DNA of 64,000 nt from Pseudoflavitalea sp. G-6-1-2 (lineage in GTDB: Bacteria > Bacteroidota > Bacteroidia > Chitinophagales > Chitinophagaceae). The DNA lies in the NCBI RefSeq assembly GCF_012927185.1, contig NZ_JABBGB010000003.1, positions 868,001 through 932,000 on the forward strand, in the 5' to 3' direction. The stretch's first letter is position 1. Each line of letters opens with the position of its first letter. Of this stretch, positions 19,332 to 24,462 are shown one piece after another. The notes below the pieces were generated by a model that saw only the letters and a list, made by a program, of their open reading frames with translations, ran no database searches and was not told the DNA's origin. The translations under genes were made by a program, and so were the position numbers.

Positions 19332-20837
19332 TTATTTATAAAGATTAGGGTTATTCTGTTCTTCTGCAAGCGGAATTGCAAACAGGTAGTATGGACTATT
19401 AGGAACATAATCACTGCCATCGATAAACTTCGTGGAAGTATGTGATTTCGATGGAACCTGAATGGGAGTACCATCGGGTGTAATGGCAGTTACTACAATT
19501 GGTTTCTTATCTGCATCTACATACGGTTTGCGCGAAACAGCCTGCTGATTGCGGATGATATCGGAGAGCGAAAATCCTTCACCCCAGAGTTCCTTTCTGC
19601 GTTCGATCAGGATCTCTTTGATCAGATCATCTTTGCTGATTGCAGGATCTGCAGGCGTGGCGCCACGTGCATTGCGTAGATCGTTCAGCGCCTGCACAGC
19701 TTCTGCTTTTTTATCGGCACGTGCGAGACCTTCAGCTTTGATCAGATGTGCTTCAGCGCTGCGCATCAGCACGAGATCAGCCGTTTGATCGTCTCTGAAA
19801 CGGAATTTCTTGTACTGAAGAAATCCCTGACGTCCCGATCTGCCATCCCATGAGAACAGCGATTTACGGATATCCCCATCATTGAACAGCAGCATGAAGA
19901 AGGGATCTGCACTGAAGCTATAGTAGTAAGAAGAAGCAGAAGATACATCGAGGAAGTGGAAGCTGTAGCTGCCATCACTCTGAGATGGGATCTCCGAATG
20001 GCCCCATATCCATTCTGAATTTCTTACATCATTGAAGCCCTGTGTGTAGTCTGCCTGCGTCATCAGCGGATAATATTTCAGCGCTTTGCTGGCAGCAGTT
20101 GCAGCTTCGTCCCATTTACCTGTGTTGAGGTATGCGCGGGCCTGAAGACCAAATACCACATTGGTATCGATCTTATACTTGGCTGTACGCTGATATCCAT
20201 CCAGCAAAGGAATGGCATCGCCGAGATCTTTCAGAATCTGCGTATAGAGTTCATTCAGAGTGGCTCTTGGTTTGCCTTCCGTTTTATCGGTTGTAGGCTC
20301 TGTGTAGATCGGAGCTGTTTTCGCATTCGGATCTTTCAGATAAGAGAACTGATAGAAAGAAGCAATGGTGAGATAGATATTCGCACGTTGTGCCAATGCC
20401 TGACCTTTCGCCACACGCTTCAATCCTGCATCTCCCTCTACTTTATCTACATTGGCCAGAATGATGTTCTGGTTATTGATGATTTTGTAAAGCTGATTCC
20501 AGATAGCATTTACGCGGCTGGTTGTTTTATCGTGCAGCTGATTGAAACTGTATACAGGGTTGTAGCTGTATTTGTTTGGATTAACCGCTACATCACTACC
20601 CATCGCATCGCTTACGAGTGCAATGGTTTTGAAACCGGGGTTACCGAATGTGCCTCCATAGAAATCGTCCATGAAAGATGCCCATGCACCTTCTGAAATG
20701 GTATTGAGGTTGCCGATATTCTTCAGAATAATTTCTTCAGAAACGGCATCGGATGGAGAGGTGTTCAGTTGTTTGTTGCAACTCGCCAGGCCTATGGACA
20801 GTGCTGCAATATATAAAAGATGATATTTCGTTTTCAT
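19332..20837 (-). CDS. SusD/RagB family outer-membrane lipoprotein
   Basis: 501 residues from the ATG at 20837, which yields a standard lipoprotein signal (MKTKYHLLYIAALSIGLASC; lipobox GLASC). An earlier ATG at 20861 overlaps the susC stop codon as TAATG and would add 8 residues; it may serve translational coupling. SusD features include ALAQRANIYLTIASFYQF, the TPR-like ARAYLNTGKWDEAATAASKAL, RSAEAHLIKAEGLARADKK, EILIERRKELWGEG and the closing FAIPLAEEQNNPNLYK. It would be the surface lid of the SusC channel, delivering substrate to it. No glycosidase, sulfatase or peptidase gene is attached, so the ligand must be inferred from the sulfur-type leader. Confidence 0.93.
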   Translation of the reverse strand: MKTKYHLLYIAALSIGLASCNKQLNTSPSDAVSEEIILKNIGNLNTISEGAWASFMDDFYGGTFGNPGFKTIALVSDAMGSDVAVNPNKYSYNPVYSFNQLHDKTTSRVNAIWNQLYKIINNQNIILANVDKVEGDAGLKRVAKGQALAQRANIYLTIASFYQFSYLKDPNAKTAPIYTEPTTDKTEGKPRATLNELYTQILKDLGDAIPLLDGYQRTAKYKIDTNVVFGLQARAYLNTGKWDEAATAASKALKYYPLMTQADYTQGFNDVRNSEWIWGHSEIPSQSDGSYSFHFLDVSSASSYYYSFSADPFFMLLFNDGDIRKSLFSWDGRSGRQGFLQYKKFRFRDDQTADLVLMRSAEAHLIKAEGLARADKKAEAVQALNDLRNARGATPADPAISKDDLIKEILIERRKELWGEGFSLSDIIRNQQAVSRKPYVDADKKPIVVTAITPDGTPIQVPSKSHTSTKFIDGSDYVPNSPYYLFAIPLAEEQNNPNLYK

Positions 20838-20860
20838 GATGCTTGATTTGAATGTGTTCA

Positions 20861-23800
20861 TTAAAGTCCTACCTGTAAGCCAACTGAAATTGTTTTCATC
20901 TGTGGATACTGATAGTAGGTTGTACCGCCGAGTGATTGCTCAGGATCCATACCCTGGTGACCGTAGAAAGTGAGCAGGTTCTCGCCCAGCAGGTACACTT
21001 TGGCTGTTTTCAAACCAGCACGCGATAACAGTGTGCGTGGCAGATTGTAGCCTAATGAAACCTGTTTCAACCTTGCATATGTGGCATCGTACAAAAATCT
21101 GGTTGAAGTAGACGTGAAGTTCAGATTGTCTGTAGTGAGAATAGGAACATTGGTGTTCTTGTTCTCAGGAGTCCATCTTTCTTTCAGCTCCACACCCCAG
21201 TTGCGGCCGGGAGAGGTACCACCGGTAAGCATGTTCACGTAATCGAGATCGAGTACTTTACCACCGAGGCTGTATGCGAGGATGAACGACAGTTCAAATT
21301 CCTTATAGTTGAGGGTGTTGGTGATACCGCCGGTAACATCAGGAAGCGCAGTGCCGGCTTGCGTAAGCGTTCCGTCGCTGTAAACAGAAGTTGTTTTTCT
21401 TGCACCTGTTGTTTTGTCGTTTGTATACCAGAGTGGTTTGCCTGTTTCGGCATCAACACCAGCCCACTCGCGGAGGAAGAAATCGTAGATCGATCCGCCA
21501 ACTGCCAGACGTTTTGTTCCGCTGATGATCTCTTTCTGTGGAAGTTCAACAATTTTGTTTTTGTTGTGTGCGAGGTTCACACCTACTGTCCACCTGAAAT
21601 CTTTATTGCTTACAGGAACCGCATTCAGTTCTACTTCGATACCGGTGTTGCGGAGCTTTCCGATATTGGCGCTTACAGAAGTGAAACCTGTAGAACCTGC
21701 CAGTGGTTTGGCATACAGCAGATCTTTACTGGTTCTGATATAGTAGTTAACGGAACCGTATAAGCGATTTTTGAAGAAACCGAAATCTGTACCTACGTTA
21801 AAGTTGAGGTTGCTTTCCCATTTGAGGCCAGGCGTTGGAAGGCGGGATGTGATAACACCACCGTTGCCGAGGTTGGTCTTAATGGAATACAAAGCCAGAT
21901 AGTTGTAAAAGCTGGTAAGATTATCGTTGCCTGATGAACCATAGCTGGCTTTCAGTGTGAGTGCGCTCAGCCAGTCCACCGACTTGAGGAAGTCTTCTTC
22001 AGACAATCTCCAGCTTGCACCTGCAGACCAGAATGTTCCCCATCTTGAATCCGGGTGGAAGCGGCTGCTTCCGTCTCTGCGAACCGATGCGGTAGCGAAA
22101 TACTTTCCGAGATAGTTGTACTGCGCCTGTCCGAAGAAACTCAGCTTAACATAGTTGTCTGCGGTACCGGAGAAATCGTTCAGCTGTGAACCAGCTACCG
22201 GCTCGTACAGATCGGGCAGTACCATTTTCTGGCGGCTGCCATAGATGCGGTTCTTGTTGAGATAGTAGTATTCATGACCAGCCAGCAGGTTCAGGTGGTG
22301 ACCCGATTGCAGGTTGAGATCATAAGTAAGAATGTTGTTCCATGTATAAGAAAGAAAACGGGAATTCTCTCTGTACACAGTGCCTTCGATCTCGGCATCT
22401 TCACCCACCAGTGGATTGGTGTAGTAATGTGAGTTGGCGTTGATGTAATCGAGATTGAAGCTGGTTTTGAACTTAAGCGCAGACGTAATGGCTGCTTCGA
22501 GGAATGTTCTCGCAGAGATATTCTCGTTGGTGTTTCTCGATCTGTTCAACGGCTCTGAACCGATGAGGTTGTAACGAGCCAGTGCAGAAGATGGACGGTA
22601 ATCGCCATAATCGTACTGTGTTTTTCCGTTTGCATCGGTAAGGAATGTGCCATCAGGGTTGCGTTTCCAGATAGGGTAGAAGCTTGGAATGGTTCTTCCG
22701 AACAGCACAATGTTGGCTTGTTTGGAATCGGAAGAAGTAGGGTAGTCCTGTGTGGTAGTTGCACCATTGAGGTTAAGGCCTACTTTCAGCCATTTCTTTG
22801 CCTGCAAAGTGAGGTTGCTTCTGAAGTTATAGCGTTTGAAACCAGAGCCGAGGAAAGCGCCTTCATTGTTGGTGTAGCCACCGCCGAGGTAGTAAGTTGC
22901 TTTTTCAGTGCCGCCGCTGAAACTCAGCTGAGCCTGTGTGTATTTGGCGTTTTGCTGCATCGCATCGGCCCAATCGTCGTTCCAGAGCGGAACGGCGCCG
23001 GCAACGATCTTACCGTCTCTTCCAACCGGTTCGGCAAATTTGGGACCGTAAGGGTTGATGCCAAGATCAGATACAATGCGGCCGCTCGCAATTTCTGCTG
23101 CTTTTGCAGGTGTTTCTTTATTGCTGAGTGCTTTGTTGCGGAGTGCCTCCCAGTAAAGCTCGAAATAATCGTTGGTGCCGATCTTGTCGTAGTCTTTCAC
23201 TGCGCGGCTGCTCGAGCCCTGATTAACTGTAACATTGATTACGCCATCTTCTCCTTTCTTTCCTGTTTTGGTGGTGATGATAATTACACCATTAGCAGCG
23301 CGTGAACCATACAGGTTGGCAGAAGCGGCATCTTTGAGGATACTGATAGATGCAATGTCCGCAGGGTCCAATGCGTTGATGTCTCCATCATATGGCGCAC
23401 CGTCTACCACAAAGAGTGGAGCACTGGAAGCATTGATAGATCCAACACCGCGGATGCGGATGGCAGAAGCATTACCGGGTTGTCCGTTCTCAGAAGTGAT
23501 CTGCAAACCGGGAGCAAGACCCTGCAATGCGTTGGTGATGTTGGGAGTAAGCCTGTTGTTGATCTTGTCGGCACTGATAGTGGCAACAGCACCGGGGTAA
23601 CCGCTACGTTTTACAGTGGTGTAGGCAACTGCTACTACTTCTTCAAGTGTGGAATTCGATGCCTTCAGAAGAATGGTAAGATCATTGTCTGATTTTACTT
23701 CTGTTTCGAGCGGTTCTCTTCCTACAAATGTGATAGTGATAACGGTTTTCCCTTCGGGAACTTCCAACTGAAATTTTCCCTGCTGGTTGGTGGTGGTTAC

Positions 23801-23953
23801 AATGGAAGTTTTGTTGACTGTAATAGTAGCCCCTTCTAAGGGTTGTTTGCTTTCAGCAGTCAGCACAACTCCACGCAACTGTTTTTTTTGTGCGTATACT
23901 CCAATGCTGATCAGCAGCGCCAGCATGAGTATTACATTTTTCTTAATAAGCAT
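20861..23953 (-). CDS. SusC/RagA family TonB-linked outer-membrane transporter
   Basis: 1030 residues from the ATG at 23953. A GTG nine codons upstream is the alternative; the ATG starts directly into the signal peptide (LIKKNVILMLALLISIGVYAQ). Then come a carboxypeptidase-D-like regulatory domain (LRGVVLTAESKQPLEGATITV), a TonB-box-like EEVVAVAY, the plug (AVATISADKINNRL... RIRGVGSINASSAPLFVVDG), the SusC signature LKDAASANLYGSRAANGVI and a 22-strand-type barrel. TonB-driven uptake of a ligand captured by SusD. The long leader with a SAM-I riboswitch and a poly-Cys ORF suggests control by sulfur amino acid status and so a sulfur-containing ligand. Confidence 0.94.
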   Translation of the reverse strand: MLIKKNVILMLALLISIGVYAQKKQLRGVVLTAESKQPLEGATITVNKTSIVTTTNQQGKFQLEVPEGKTVITITFVGREPLETEVKSDNDLTILLKASNSTLEEVVAVAYTTVKRSGYPGAVATISADKINNRLTPNITNALQGLAPGLQITSENGQPGNASAIRIRGVGSINASSAPLFVVDGAPYDGDINALDPADIASISILKDAASANLYGSRAANGVIIITTKTGKKGEDGVINVTVNQGSSSRAVKDYDKIGTNDYFELYWEALRNKALSNKETPAKAAEIASGRIVSDLGINPYGPKFAEPVGRDGKIVAGAVPLWNDDWADAMQQNAKYTQAQLSFSGGTEKATYYLGGGYTNNEGAFLGSGFKRYNFRSNLTLQAKKWLKVGLNLNGATTTQDYPTSSDSKQANIVLFGRTIPSFYPIWKRNPDGTFLTDANGKTQYDYGDYRPSSALARYNLIGSEPLNRSRNTNENISARTFLEAAITSALKFKTSFNLDYINANSHYYTNPLVGEDAEIEGTVYRENSRFLSYTWNNILTYDLNLQSGHHLNLLAGHEYYYLNKNRIYGSRQKMVLPDLYEPVAGSQLNDFSGTADNYVKLSFFGQAQYNYLGKYFATASVRRDGSSRFHPDSRWGTFWSAGASWRLSEEDFLKSVDWLSALTLKASYGSSGNDNLTSFYNYLALYSIKTNLGNGGVITSRLPTPGLKWESNLNFNVGTDFGFFKNRLYGSVNYYIRTSKDLLYAKPLAGSTGFTSVSANIGKLRNTGIEVELNAVPVSNKDFRWTVGVNLAHNKNKIVELPQKEIISGTKRLAVGGSIYDFFLREWAGVDAETGKPLWYTNDKTTGARKTTSVYSDGTLTQAGTALPDVTGGITNTLNYKEFELSFILAYSLGGKVLDLDYVNMLTGGTSPGRNWGVELKERWTPENKNTNVPILTTDNLNFTSTSTRFLYDATYARLKQVSLGYNLPRTLLSRAGLKTAKVYLLGENLLTFYGHQGMDPEQSLGGTTYYQYPQMKTISVGLQVGL

Positions 23954-24033
23954 ACGTATTGTTGAATTAAAAGTAGACACGGAATATCCCTTCCGATGCC
24001 TGGGTTTAGAATTGGCATAGCATCGGTTACAAT

Positions 24034-24047
24034 GCTCCTTGAGGAGC
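24034..24047 (-). promoter_or_regulatory. Hairpin between the poly-Cys ORF and susC
   Basis: GCTCCT and AGGAGC arms with a 2-base loop, about 40 bases after the stop codon of the Cys-rich ORF and about 80 bases before the susC start. No T run follows on the minus strand, so it is not a classic terminator. The 3' arm contains AGGAG. It may take part in an alternative leader fold or protect the susC message. Confidence 0.4.
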
Positions 24048-24087: not shown

Positions 24088-24135
24088 CTATCCCATACAA
24101 CAGCAACAACAGCAGCGTTGCATGCTATGGGGCAT
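24088..24135 (-). CDS. Cysteine-rich leader peptide (six consecutive Cys codons)
   Basis: A 15-codon ORF, MPHSMQRCCCCCCMG then TAG, in the leader of the susCD operon. The Cys codons at 24114-24097 alternate TGC and TGT; three further codons are Met, so 9 of 15 residues contain sulfur. A shorter version could start at the internal ATG at 24123. It lies 121 bases downstream of the SAM-I riboswitch and 134 bases upstream of susC. By analogy with ribosome-stalling leader peptides, and with the poly-Cys upstream ORFs reported in mycobacteria, slow translation when Cys-tRNA is scarce would alter folding of the leader and raise susCD expression. Translation is inferred, not shown. Confidence 0.68.
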   Translation of the reverse strand: MPHSMQRCCCCCCMG

Positions 24136-24256
24136 CAGTTGACACATTCGTGGGGCAGAATAAATAGCTTTCATCACTTTCAACTTTACATGAGACAACC
24201 ATTAACCAGAAAATGCTGCGGAGCGCTCAGAAGAGTTTTGAAATACATTCAACTAT

Positions 24257-24360
24257 CTCATCTTTCTCCTTTTCAGGAGGAGGAGTTAGCACCTTATACA
24301 TGGGTAAGTACAGGTTGCCAAGACGTCGCAGGGCCCTTCCCTCAGTCTGTTCTGGATAAG
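24257..24360 (-). promoter_or_regulatory. SAM-I (S-box) riboswitch upstream of susCD
   Basis: On the minus strand the whole S-box core is present in order: CTTATCCAGA (P1 5' strand), GAGGGAAGGGCCC, GGCAACC, AGGTGCTAA, TCC, then GGAGAAAGATGAG. P1 closes by CTTATC (24360-24355) pairing with GATGAG (24262-24257), six pairs including one G-U. S-box RNAs bind S-adenosylmethionine and usually shut off methionine or sulfur genes when SAM is plentiful. Here the downstream genes are a SusC/SusD pair, about 300 bases on. The expression platform is unclear because no intrinsic terminator follows directly. Confidence 0.92.
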
Positions 24361-24391
24361 TGTTGTAAAAGATCTATTGTGTTTGGAGGTG

Positions 24392-24423
24392 CAAATATAG
24401 AGCGCATATTTTAGTCTACCAAA
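24392..24423 (-). promoter_or_regulatory. Promoter of the susCD leader
   Basis: Minus-strand -33 box TTTG (24423-24420), 20-base spacer, then -7 box TATATTTG (24399-24392). Transcription would start near 24385, about 25 bases before the S-box P1 stem. Confidence 0.78.
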
Positions 24424-24462
24424 AAAGTAGGGTTATGTTTCAGGATAAATTTTCCGGACTGC

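Follow-up and report, generated by a model that had tools for sequence, protein, structure and literature searches.

Poly-Cys leader peptides lacking terminators were predicted in 2005 for Mycobacterium, P. acnes and B. longum (PMC1262725, available part), and the poly-Cys ORFs of M. smegmatis are described in PMC9031893 as working by an attenuation dependent on cysteine supply; the experiment on them (Canestrari et al. 2020) is cited there and in PMC13236596. In Rhodobacterales, the uORFC-8-2 motif located before cysS carries tandem Cys codons inside a stem, and ribosome-mediated attenuation has been proposed for it (PMC8632094, in the portion available). Two signals are combined in the Salmonella mgtCBR leader, where the tandem attenuators mgtM and mgtP act independently and additively according to the available text of PMC3641672. 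As for Bacteroidota, leader-like sORFs are mentioned for B. thetaiotaomicron in the accessible part of PMC7366714, and a search of the text available from PMC2965389 gave no occurrence of 'Bacteroid' or 'Chitinophaga'. Among the matches listed in our literature searches, with subscription journals mostly outside their scope and sources available in part, none dealt with a SAM riboswitch joined to a Cys leader or with Cys leaders of Bacteroidota.

The leader studied here precedes susC on the minus strand of the window, i.e.: the whole 64,000-nucleotide stretch of Pseudoflavitalea sp. G-6-1-2 DNA that was analysed. It shares with the actinobacterial poly-Cys leaders a short ORF, a Cys run near the stop, a probable place among sulfur-gene leaders and, as far as the available part of PMC1262725 goes, the lack of a reported conserved terminator hairpin; it differs from them in belonging to a different phylum, in being paired with a SAM-I aptamer and in standing before an outer-membrane importer. 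The uORFC-8-2 motif is more distant, with two Cys codons, an intrinsic terminator, a different gene and no riboswitch mentioned in the portion of PMC8632094 at hand. The mgtCBR leader resembles the arrangement we propose in that it reads two signals, one of them amino-acid supply through the codons of a short ORF (PMC3641672, available text), but its other input is ATP, again through a short ORF, there is no metabolite riboswitch in that account, and the signals do not belong to one nutrient pathway. CruR, too, is a uORF that contains Cys and precedes the gene of a TonB-dependent transporter, yet it is a longer protein with CXXC and RAPP motifs and senses copper (PMC9426467, accessible part). 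With respect to RF00162 riboswitches, the window aptamer is a member by score, and differs in that no terminator of its own was found and in being followed by an ORF with Cys codons.

The elements of the locus follow each other on the minus strand in the order upstream motif, promoter element, SAM-I aptamer, short ORF with Cys run, susC and susD (Table 1). By its covariance-model score, the segment 24362-24255 is a member of the SAM-I riboswitches, and an aptamer is found at the equivalent place in two congeners (G001 and G004). TAnnTTTG is the -7 consensus of Bacteroidota promoters, and both congeners have it too, 36 nt upstream of their aptamer. The stretch from aptamer to ORF showed no terminator in any of the four S-box/SusC leaders read (window, G001, G004, and G100). 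The upstream motif was searched for in the source genome with the pattern AGTCYAYYNNNNNNRTRGGDWW, which was written from leaders of this kind, so that its matches at susC and at a cysteine synthase-like gene are by construction. It has five matches in the genome: the susC leader, the cysteine synthase-like leader, metY, and two genes that by eye are peroxiredoxin-like and S1-domain-like, the last of which may be a chance match. The backward version of the pattern, used as a control, has one.

Table 1. Position of the features of the susC leader, and of a related locus, in nucleotides of the window unless a contig is given.
Feature	Position	Strand	Basis or remark
Upstream motif AGTCTACC-N6-GTAGGGTT (plus reading), partly palindromic	24413..24434	.	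Candidate sulfur-regulon site; adjoins promoter
Promoter -7 element TATATTTG, TAnnTTTG type	24399..24392	minus	Direct reading
Left arm of predicted ligand-free pairing, includes 5' strand of P1	24366..24350	minus	Prediction from unconstrained MFE fold
SAM-I (S-box) riboswitch aptamer	24362..24255	minus	RF00162, 70.6 bits (cut-off 44.4), full length 1-108
Right arm of predicted ligand-free pairing, between aptamer and leader ORF	24213..24195	minus	Unconstrained MFE fold
Leader ORF, 28 codons, MKAIYSAPRMCQLMPHSMQRCCCCCCMG-stop	24174..24088	minus	Same length in two congeners; the 15-codon ORF is its 3' part
Weak terminator-like site, inside leader ORF	24121-24103	minus	Consensus scan
Run of six Cys codons, TGC TGT TGT TGC TGT TGT	24114-24097	minus	Third-position C/T differs across orthologs
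Hairpin A, GCUCC-UCAA-GGAGC, 3' of ORF	24047..24034	minus	RNAalifold over 12 leaders, weak support
Weak terminator-like hairpin, 5 pairs, interrupted T tail	23995..23980	minus	Consensus scan
susC, SusC/RagA TonB-linked outer-membrane transporter	23953..20861	minus	TIGR04056, 817.6 bits; Pfam Plug, CarbopepD_reg_2; ATG at 23953
susD, partner lipoprotein	20861..19332	minus	PF07980, PF14322
Cysteine synthase-like gene (L085)	G000:C1:2020923-2022043		Homologs L147-L161; six-Cys leader peptide and intrinsic terminator

Translation of 24135-24088 on the minus strand gives MPHSMQRCCCCCCMG-stop, 15 codons with six consecutive Cys and three Met. An in-frame ATG lies 13 codons upstream of the 24135 start, at 24174, and the ORF opened by it ends in CCCCCCMG-stop at 24088. 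Since the 28-codon ORF has equal length in both congeners (MKTVLSTLPLLCTSHNRMQLSCCCCCMR and MKTVFSSLPLLYTTPNRMQRCCCCCCMG), the ATG at 24174 is probably the start, rather than the one at 24135. The original prediction had placed an ORF with six Cys codons between S-box and susC, which was borne out by the translation, the RF00162 match and a shuffle test; it had described it as a 15-codon ORF with three Met, of which the six Cys and three Met hold and the length probably has to be extended to 28 codons. In that test the 275 nt preceding susC were subjected to 4000 dinucleotide shuffles: none had an ATG ORF with at least five consecutive Cys at most four codons from its stop, and nine had one with at least three. 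The first Met codon is absent from both congeners, and the other two are present in both and are not kept in most loci without S-box. Between the ORFs of G001 and G004 there are 4, 3 and 8 differences at codon positions 1, 2 and 3, a modest bias. At the scale of the source genome, at least five consecutive TGY codons occur at 25 places, including the window's run; 23 of the 24 others sit within frames that are open from stop to stop over 100 codons or more, on either strand, and the sole exception is the leader ORF before the cysteine synthase-like gene. An antisense frame that stays open for at least 104 codons also crosses the window's run.

Downstream, a SusC/RagA TonB-linked protein adjoins a SusD, as in SusCD importers, a class mostly known for glycans. 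By eye, no third gene was common to the SusC/SusD neighbourhoods of five relatives. The cargo of this pair is likely to be a sulfur compound.

To look for the ORF in relatives, a nucleotide pattern proved of little use as an ortholog finder and was abandoned. ATGCAR-N6-TGY4 matched 19 of 394 family genomes at 20 places (2 genomes for the backward control), and only three of the 20 places were susC leaders (window, G001, and G004), the others being read by eye as chance. The ATGCAR start is specific to the genus, and orthologs were therefore sought through the SusC protein. They came from genome contigs and from family genomes, with matches in 12 of 244 in one set and six of 38 chosen genomes in another; among 295 genomes of the class the window SusC found only the window itself at threshold. 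Loci found twice were counted once (L066=L108, L067=L164, L068=L165, L070=L168, L071=L109, and L074=L163); L072, without upstream DNA, and L075-L084, with less than 44% identity, were left out of the count. The susC of G004 is truncated at a contig end and was grouped with the close orthologs by its N-terminus, not by identity. We scored an ATG ORF with at least three consecutive Cys, at most four codons from the stop and at most 275 nt from susC.

Ten of 15 orthologs with about 70% identity or more have such an ORF (window, G001, G004, G002, G005, L069, L070, L071, L166, and L167). As for the other five, L067 and L068 have a stop directly before the Cys codons, L107 lacks the ATG, L066 has CC only, and L074 is Cys-rich without run or ATG. 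Among the homologs with 44-66% identity, two of six score: L115 (52%, CCCC) and L073 (44%, MCMCCCM); L112 (66%) has CC only and L113 (64%), L114 (53%) and L116 (49%) have no Cys run. As a control, 30 of the 57 SusC matches of the source genome were read over the 350 nt that precede the nearest ATG; 29 of these are genes other than the window's susC. Judged by reading, none of these 29 has a Cys run near the stop; one (L123) has a CCC, but 14 residues from the stop. The difference between 10 of 15 and 0 of 29 gives a Fisher p of 1e-6, which is only descriptive because the orthologs are related. The ORF starts 205-234 nt upstream of susC in the ten intact close orthologs, and this spacing is kept with or without S-box; measured from TAnnTTTG, the start lies about 217 nt downstream in S-box loci and 9-23 nt in five loci without S-box. 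The window, G001, G004 and L071 have the longest runs (5-6 Cys), so that each of the genus's three S-box loci is among them. One mark of amino-acid leader-peptide attenuators is a small ORF, conserved among relatives, in which the regulatory codon is repeated close to the stop, and this is found here for Cys.

The distribution of the S-box is narrower. The window, G001 and G004 are the only close SusC orthologs where it was found; eight named homologs, the other 10 of 12 loci of the family search and L163-L168 (two of which are new) gave no match. Two further members of the genus, G002 and G005, have susC with a CCC leader and no S-box there, and G003 has no susC match at threshold. With the flavobacterial SusC L073 as query, the hits in 395 genomes of the phylum were the window and two genomes (loci L175 and L176) that belong to the class but to a different family. 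In both, an S-box precedes a distant SusC homolog, 49 and 47% identical to L073, and there is no Cys run. Because only three SusC orthologs have the S-box, the Cys leader seems to predate it at susC, and because G002 and G005 have CCC without S-box while L175 and L176 have an S-box without Cys run, the two devices seem to have been gained and lost separately. The SusC homolog of L175 and L176 also has an AGTCTA..TAGACT inverted repeat upstream, besides the S-box.

We then asked which genes of the family carry both devices, reading 65 S-box leaders: the best 30 from 155 matched genomes of 195, 20 selected stretches from genomes with at least two S-box matches, and 15 of the genus. An ORF was called Cys-rich if it started with ATG, had at most 60 codons and contained at least four Cys in eight residues. 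Gene classes rest on N-terminal motifs, with single loci checked by NCBIfam: cysH, cysD, metY (L172, L177), hom (L178) and SusC (L234) passed the curated cut-off, MetX, CGS (L182) and PstS scored below it, and the porin-like protein had no match. A Cys-rich ORF follows the S-box in seven of 12 metY leaders automatically and in nine of 12 when L181 and L204 are included by eye (L177 being weaker), in 3/3 susC leaders of the genus, in the one metX-like leader, and in three of 15 unclassified leaders. It follows it in 0/31 cystathionine gamma-synthase-like (CGS-like) and 0/3 homoserine dehydrogenase (hom) leaders. The aptamer-to-gene distance is 33-256 nt for CGS-like and 113-454 nt for metY genes, so that the shorter CGS-like leaders have less room for an ORF; the hom leaders are shorter as well. 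Of the three unclassified positives, one stands before cysH-cysD, one before a SusC/SusD pair (SusD identified by eye), and one before genes for a porin-like protein and a PstS-like binding protein. Apart from SusC, 12 of 13 tandem leaders have an S-box terminator of their own. As a possible internal promoter, TAnnTTTG occurs in the interval from S-box to Cys ORF in seven of these 13 (0/4 for SusC leaders), so that in those seven the two devices may in part be carried by separate transcripts.

In metY leaders (L179, L181, L185, L192, L193, L197, L204, L209, and L212) the runs mix Cys and Met, e.g. MCCCCMCMGA, and several have by eye a small AUGCC-loop-GGCAU hairpin at the end of the ORF; metY leader ORFs may count Met besides Cys. 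In G107 (L221/L231) an S-box, a terminator and a leader ORF ending in ACCCCCNSSCCMQ precede cysH-cysD (and cysN by eye). In G066 (L216/L232), an S-box and a Cys-rich leader precede the porin-like and PstS-like genes, whose operon is possibly a sulfate and not a phosphate system. A further S-box class (L001, L005, L006, L009, L215, and L223) stands before a conserved gene starting with M(K/R)(E/D)Q.

For the output step, no strong terminator was found at the susC leader in the window scan, only the two weak terminator-like sites of Table 1, both on the minus strand. Of conserved structure 3' of the ORF, two hairpins were noticed by eye; RNAalifold over 12 leaders gives hairpin A, with five pairs, in three of which both bases are altered, each time in a single sequence, an energy of -1.8 kcal/mol and an unfavourable covariation term (+0.14); an earlier alignment of 11 leaders gave no conserved structure 3' of the ORF. 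Fold z-scores for the stretch from Cys run to susC range from -2.24 to +0.50. A hairpin around the Cys codons that looked conserved by eye at some loci was dropped because its z-scores span -2.00 to +1.29. As the terminator-like sites are only weak, we consider Rho-dependent termination or a block of translation more likely than an intrinsic terminator, and we do not claim for the susC leader membership in the intrinsic-terminator subclass of textbook transcription attenuators.

Taken from the sequence, the susC leader is, in our judgement, quite probably a sulfur sensor with two inputs, SAM and charged tRNA-Cys, on one transcript. The SAM-I aptamer would read SAM, and the 28-codon ORF, whose Cys run lies directly ahead of the stop, would read charged tRNA-Cys: when Cys-tRNA is scarce, the ribosome would pause within the run, the downstream RNA would refold, and susC would be expressed, so that importer expression would be high at low SAM and/or low Cys. 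Translation of the ORF, stalling, the AND or additive logic and the output step are all parts that we infer. The original prediction had put forward this two-signal leader and expected the run to be kept in relatives with the S-box. Conservation of the run and of its spacing to susC, the pairing before other sulfur genes, the Cys-rich leaders of the cysteine synthase-like genes and the upstream motif at metY speak for it. None of the three SusC leaders of the genus with an S-box has lost the run, and SusC relatives without S-box keep it too. Against it stand L175 and L176, with an S-box and no run, the five close orthologs without a clean ORF, the weak terminator-like sites and covariation at susC, and the small number of cysteine synthase-like leaders (3 of 15) whose antiterminator pairing beats shuffles. 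The pairing of S-box and Cys run, then known to its author from no other case, is present before susC and is not unique, since metY, metX-like, cysHD, porin-like and another SusCD have it too; the search of the family for an S-box followed by a Cys ORF before susC, which had been proposed as a check, gave among the 65 S-box leaders read the three loci of the genus plus one other SusCD.

Several other readings can be weighed against this one. The two inputs could be hierarchical, with SAM controlling access to the start of the leader ORF and Cys being read only at low SAM. This variant of the two-input sensor draws on the contrast between the four S-box/SusC leaders, G100 included, in which no terminator was found from aptamer to ORF, and the 12 of 13 other tandem leaders that have one, and on MFE folds, in which ACAACA..CUUAUCCAGAA at the 5' end is predicted to pair with UUUCUGG..GUUGU, just before the ORF, in the ligand-free form of 3/3 S-box/SusC leaders of the genus. 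Because these folds concern three related sequences only, we regard the hierarchy as a tentative option, with the odds rather against it. The Cys ORF might instead be a decaying relic in this genus, where the S-box took over and the run no longer matters: a start codon or run is missing in several relatives, and some members of the genus, G002 and G005, keep the susC ortholog without an S-box between promoter and ORF. Such decay is improbable, given that the genus's three S-box loci have runs of 5-6 Cys, an intact ORF and a conserved spacing.

Two readings dispense with tRNA charging altogether. The nascent poly-Cys peptide could sense a metal (Cu or Zn) or redox state and free or arrest the ribosome, in the manner of CruR, the precedent for a Cys-containing uORF with a TonB-dependent transporter (PMC9426467, accessible part), and six adjacent Cys could conceivably bind Cu or Zn. 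We give this little credence: the Cys-rich leaders found here precede sulfate reduction, cysteine synthase-like, metY and metX-like genes, and two codons separate the run from the stop in G001, G004 and the window, so that its residues would still be inside the exit tunnel at termination. That the run is a chance low-complexity (TGY)n stretch, the real feature being on the complementary strand, could be suspected from the 25 genomic places with five TGY codons, nearly all within long open frames on either strand. This reading was set aside as having practically no likelihood, being contradicted by the comparison across genera, in which the run is conserved in frame near the stop with synonymous C/T variation, and by the 0/4000 shuffles.

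Returning to the two-input sensor, the SAM-I plus Cys-leader device joins sensors of known kinds and, from the leaders compared, is recurrent in the family. We lean towards a general rule in which genes that acquire or fix sulfur (SusCD, cysHD, metY, and metX-like) would use a SAM-I aptamer plus a Cys (often Cys/Met) ORF, while genes that only consume Cys for methionine would have the riboswitch alone; the devices would be gained and lost separately, and at SusCD, with one leader lacking a strong terminator, SAM may gate the reading of Cys. If the two-input reading is true, a single mRNA leader gauges two nodes of one pathway, its end product (SAM) and its entry product (Cys), by means of two unrelated RNA-based sensors. 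The contrast between genes with both devices and genes with the S-box only makes the logic directly testable. The two-input reading would also tie a SusCD pair to sulfur supply and give a handle on its substrate, and it would suggest that Cys-counting leaders are regularly used in Bacteroidota.

The cysteine synthase-like gene of the source genome offers a simpler relative of the susC leader. Its product scores 206.7 bits with PF00291, and its best NCBIfam match, CysM, reaches 259.4 bits, below the cut-off of 394.2. The leader encodes a peptide ending in CCCCCCKTHARVIWVGCSLGLS-stop, followed by a terminator. Close homologs of the gene occur in 16 of 195 family genomes, and 15 leaders could be read (L162 begins where its contig does). 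Each of the 15 combines a Cys-rich ORF with a U-tract terminator hairpin; 12 have a run of at least four Cys and three are of the CCCTCCC or CCCNCC kind. In most of them a GGUGG-like stretch 5' of the terminator can pair with its left arm, a complementarity that exceeds base-composition shuffles at 5% in only 3/15. Judged on these elements, this leader most likely works by classical attenuation with an intrinsic terminator. After the cysteine synthase-like gene, L085 and L041 have a gene that by eye is JAMM/MPN-like, a pair that we take to be reminiscent of the CysM-CysO-Mec route.
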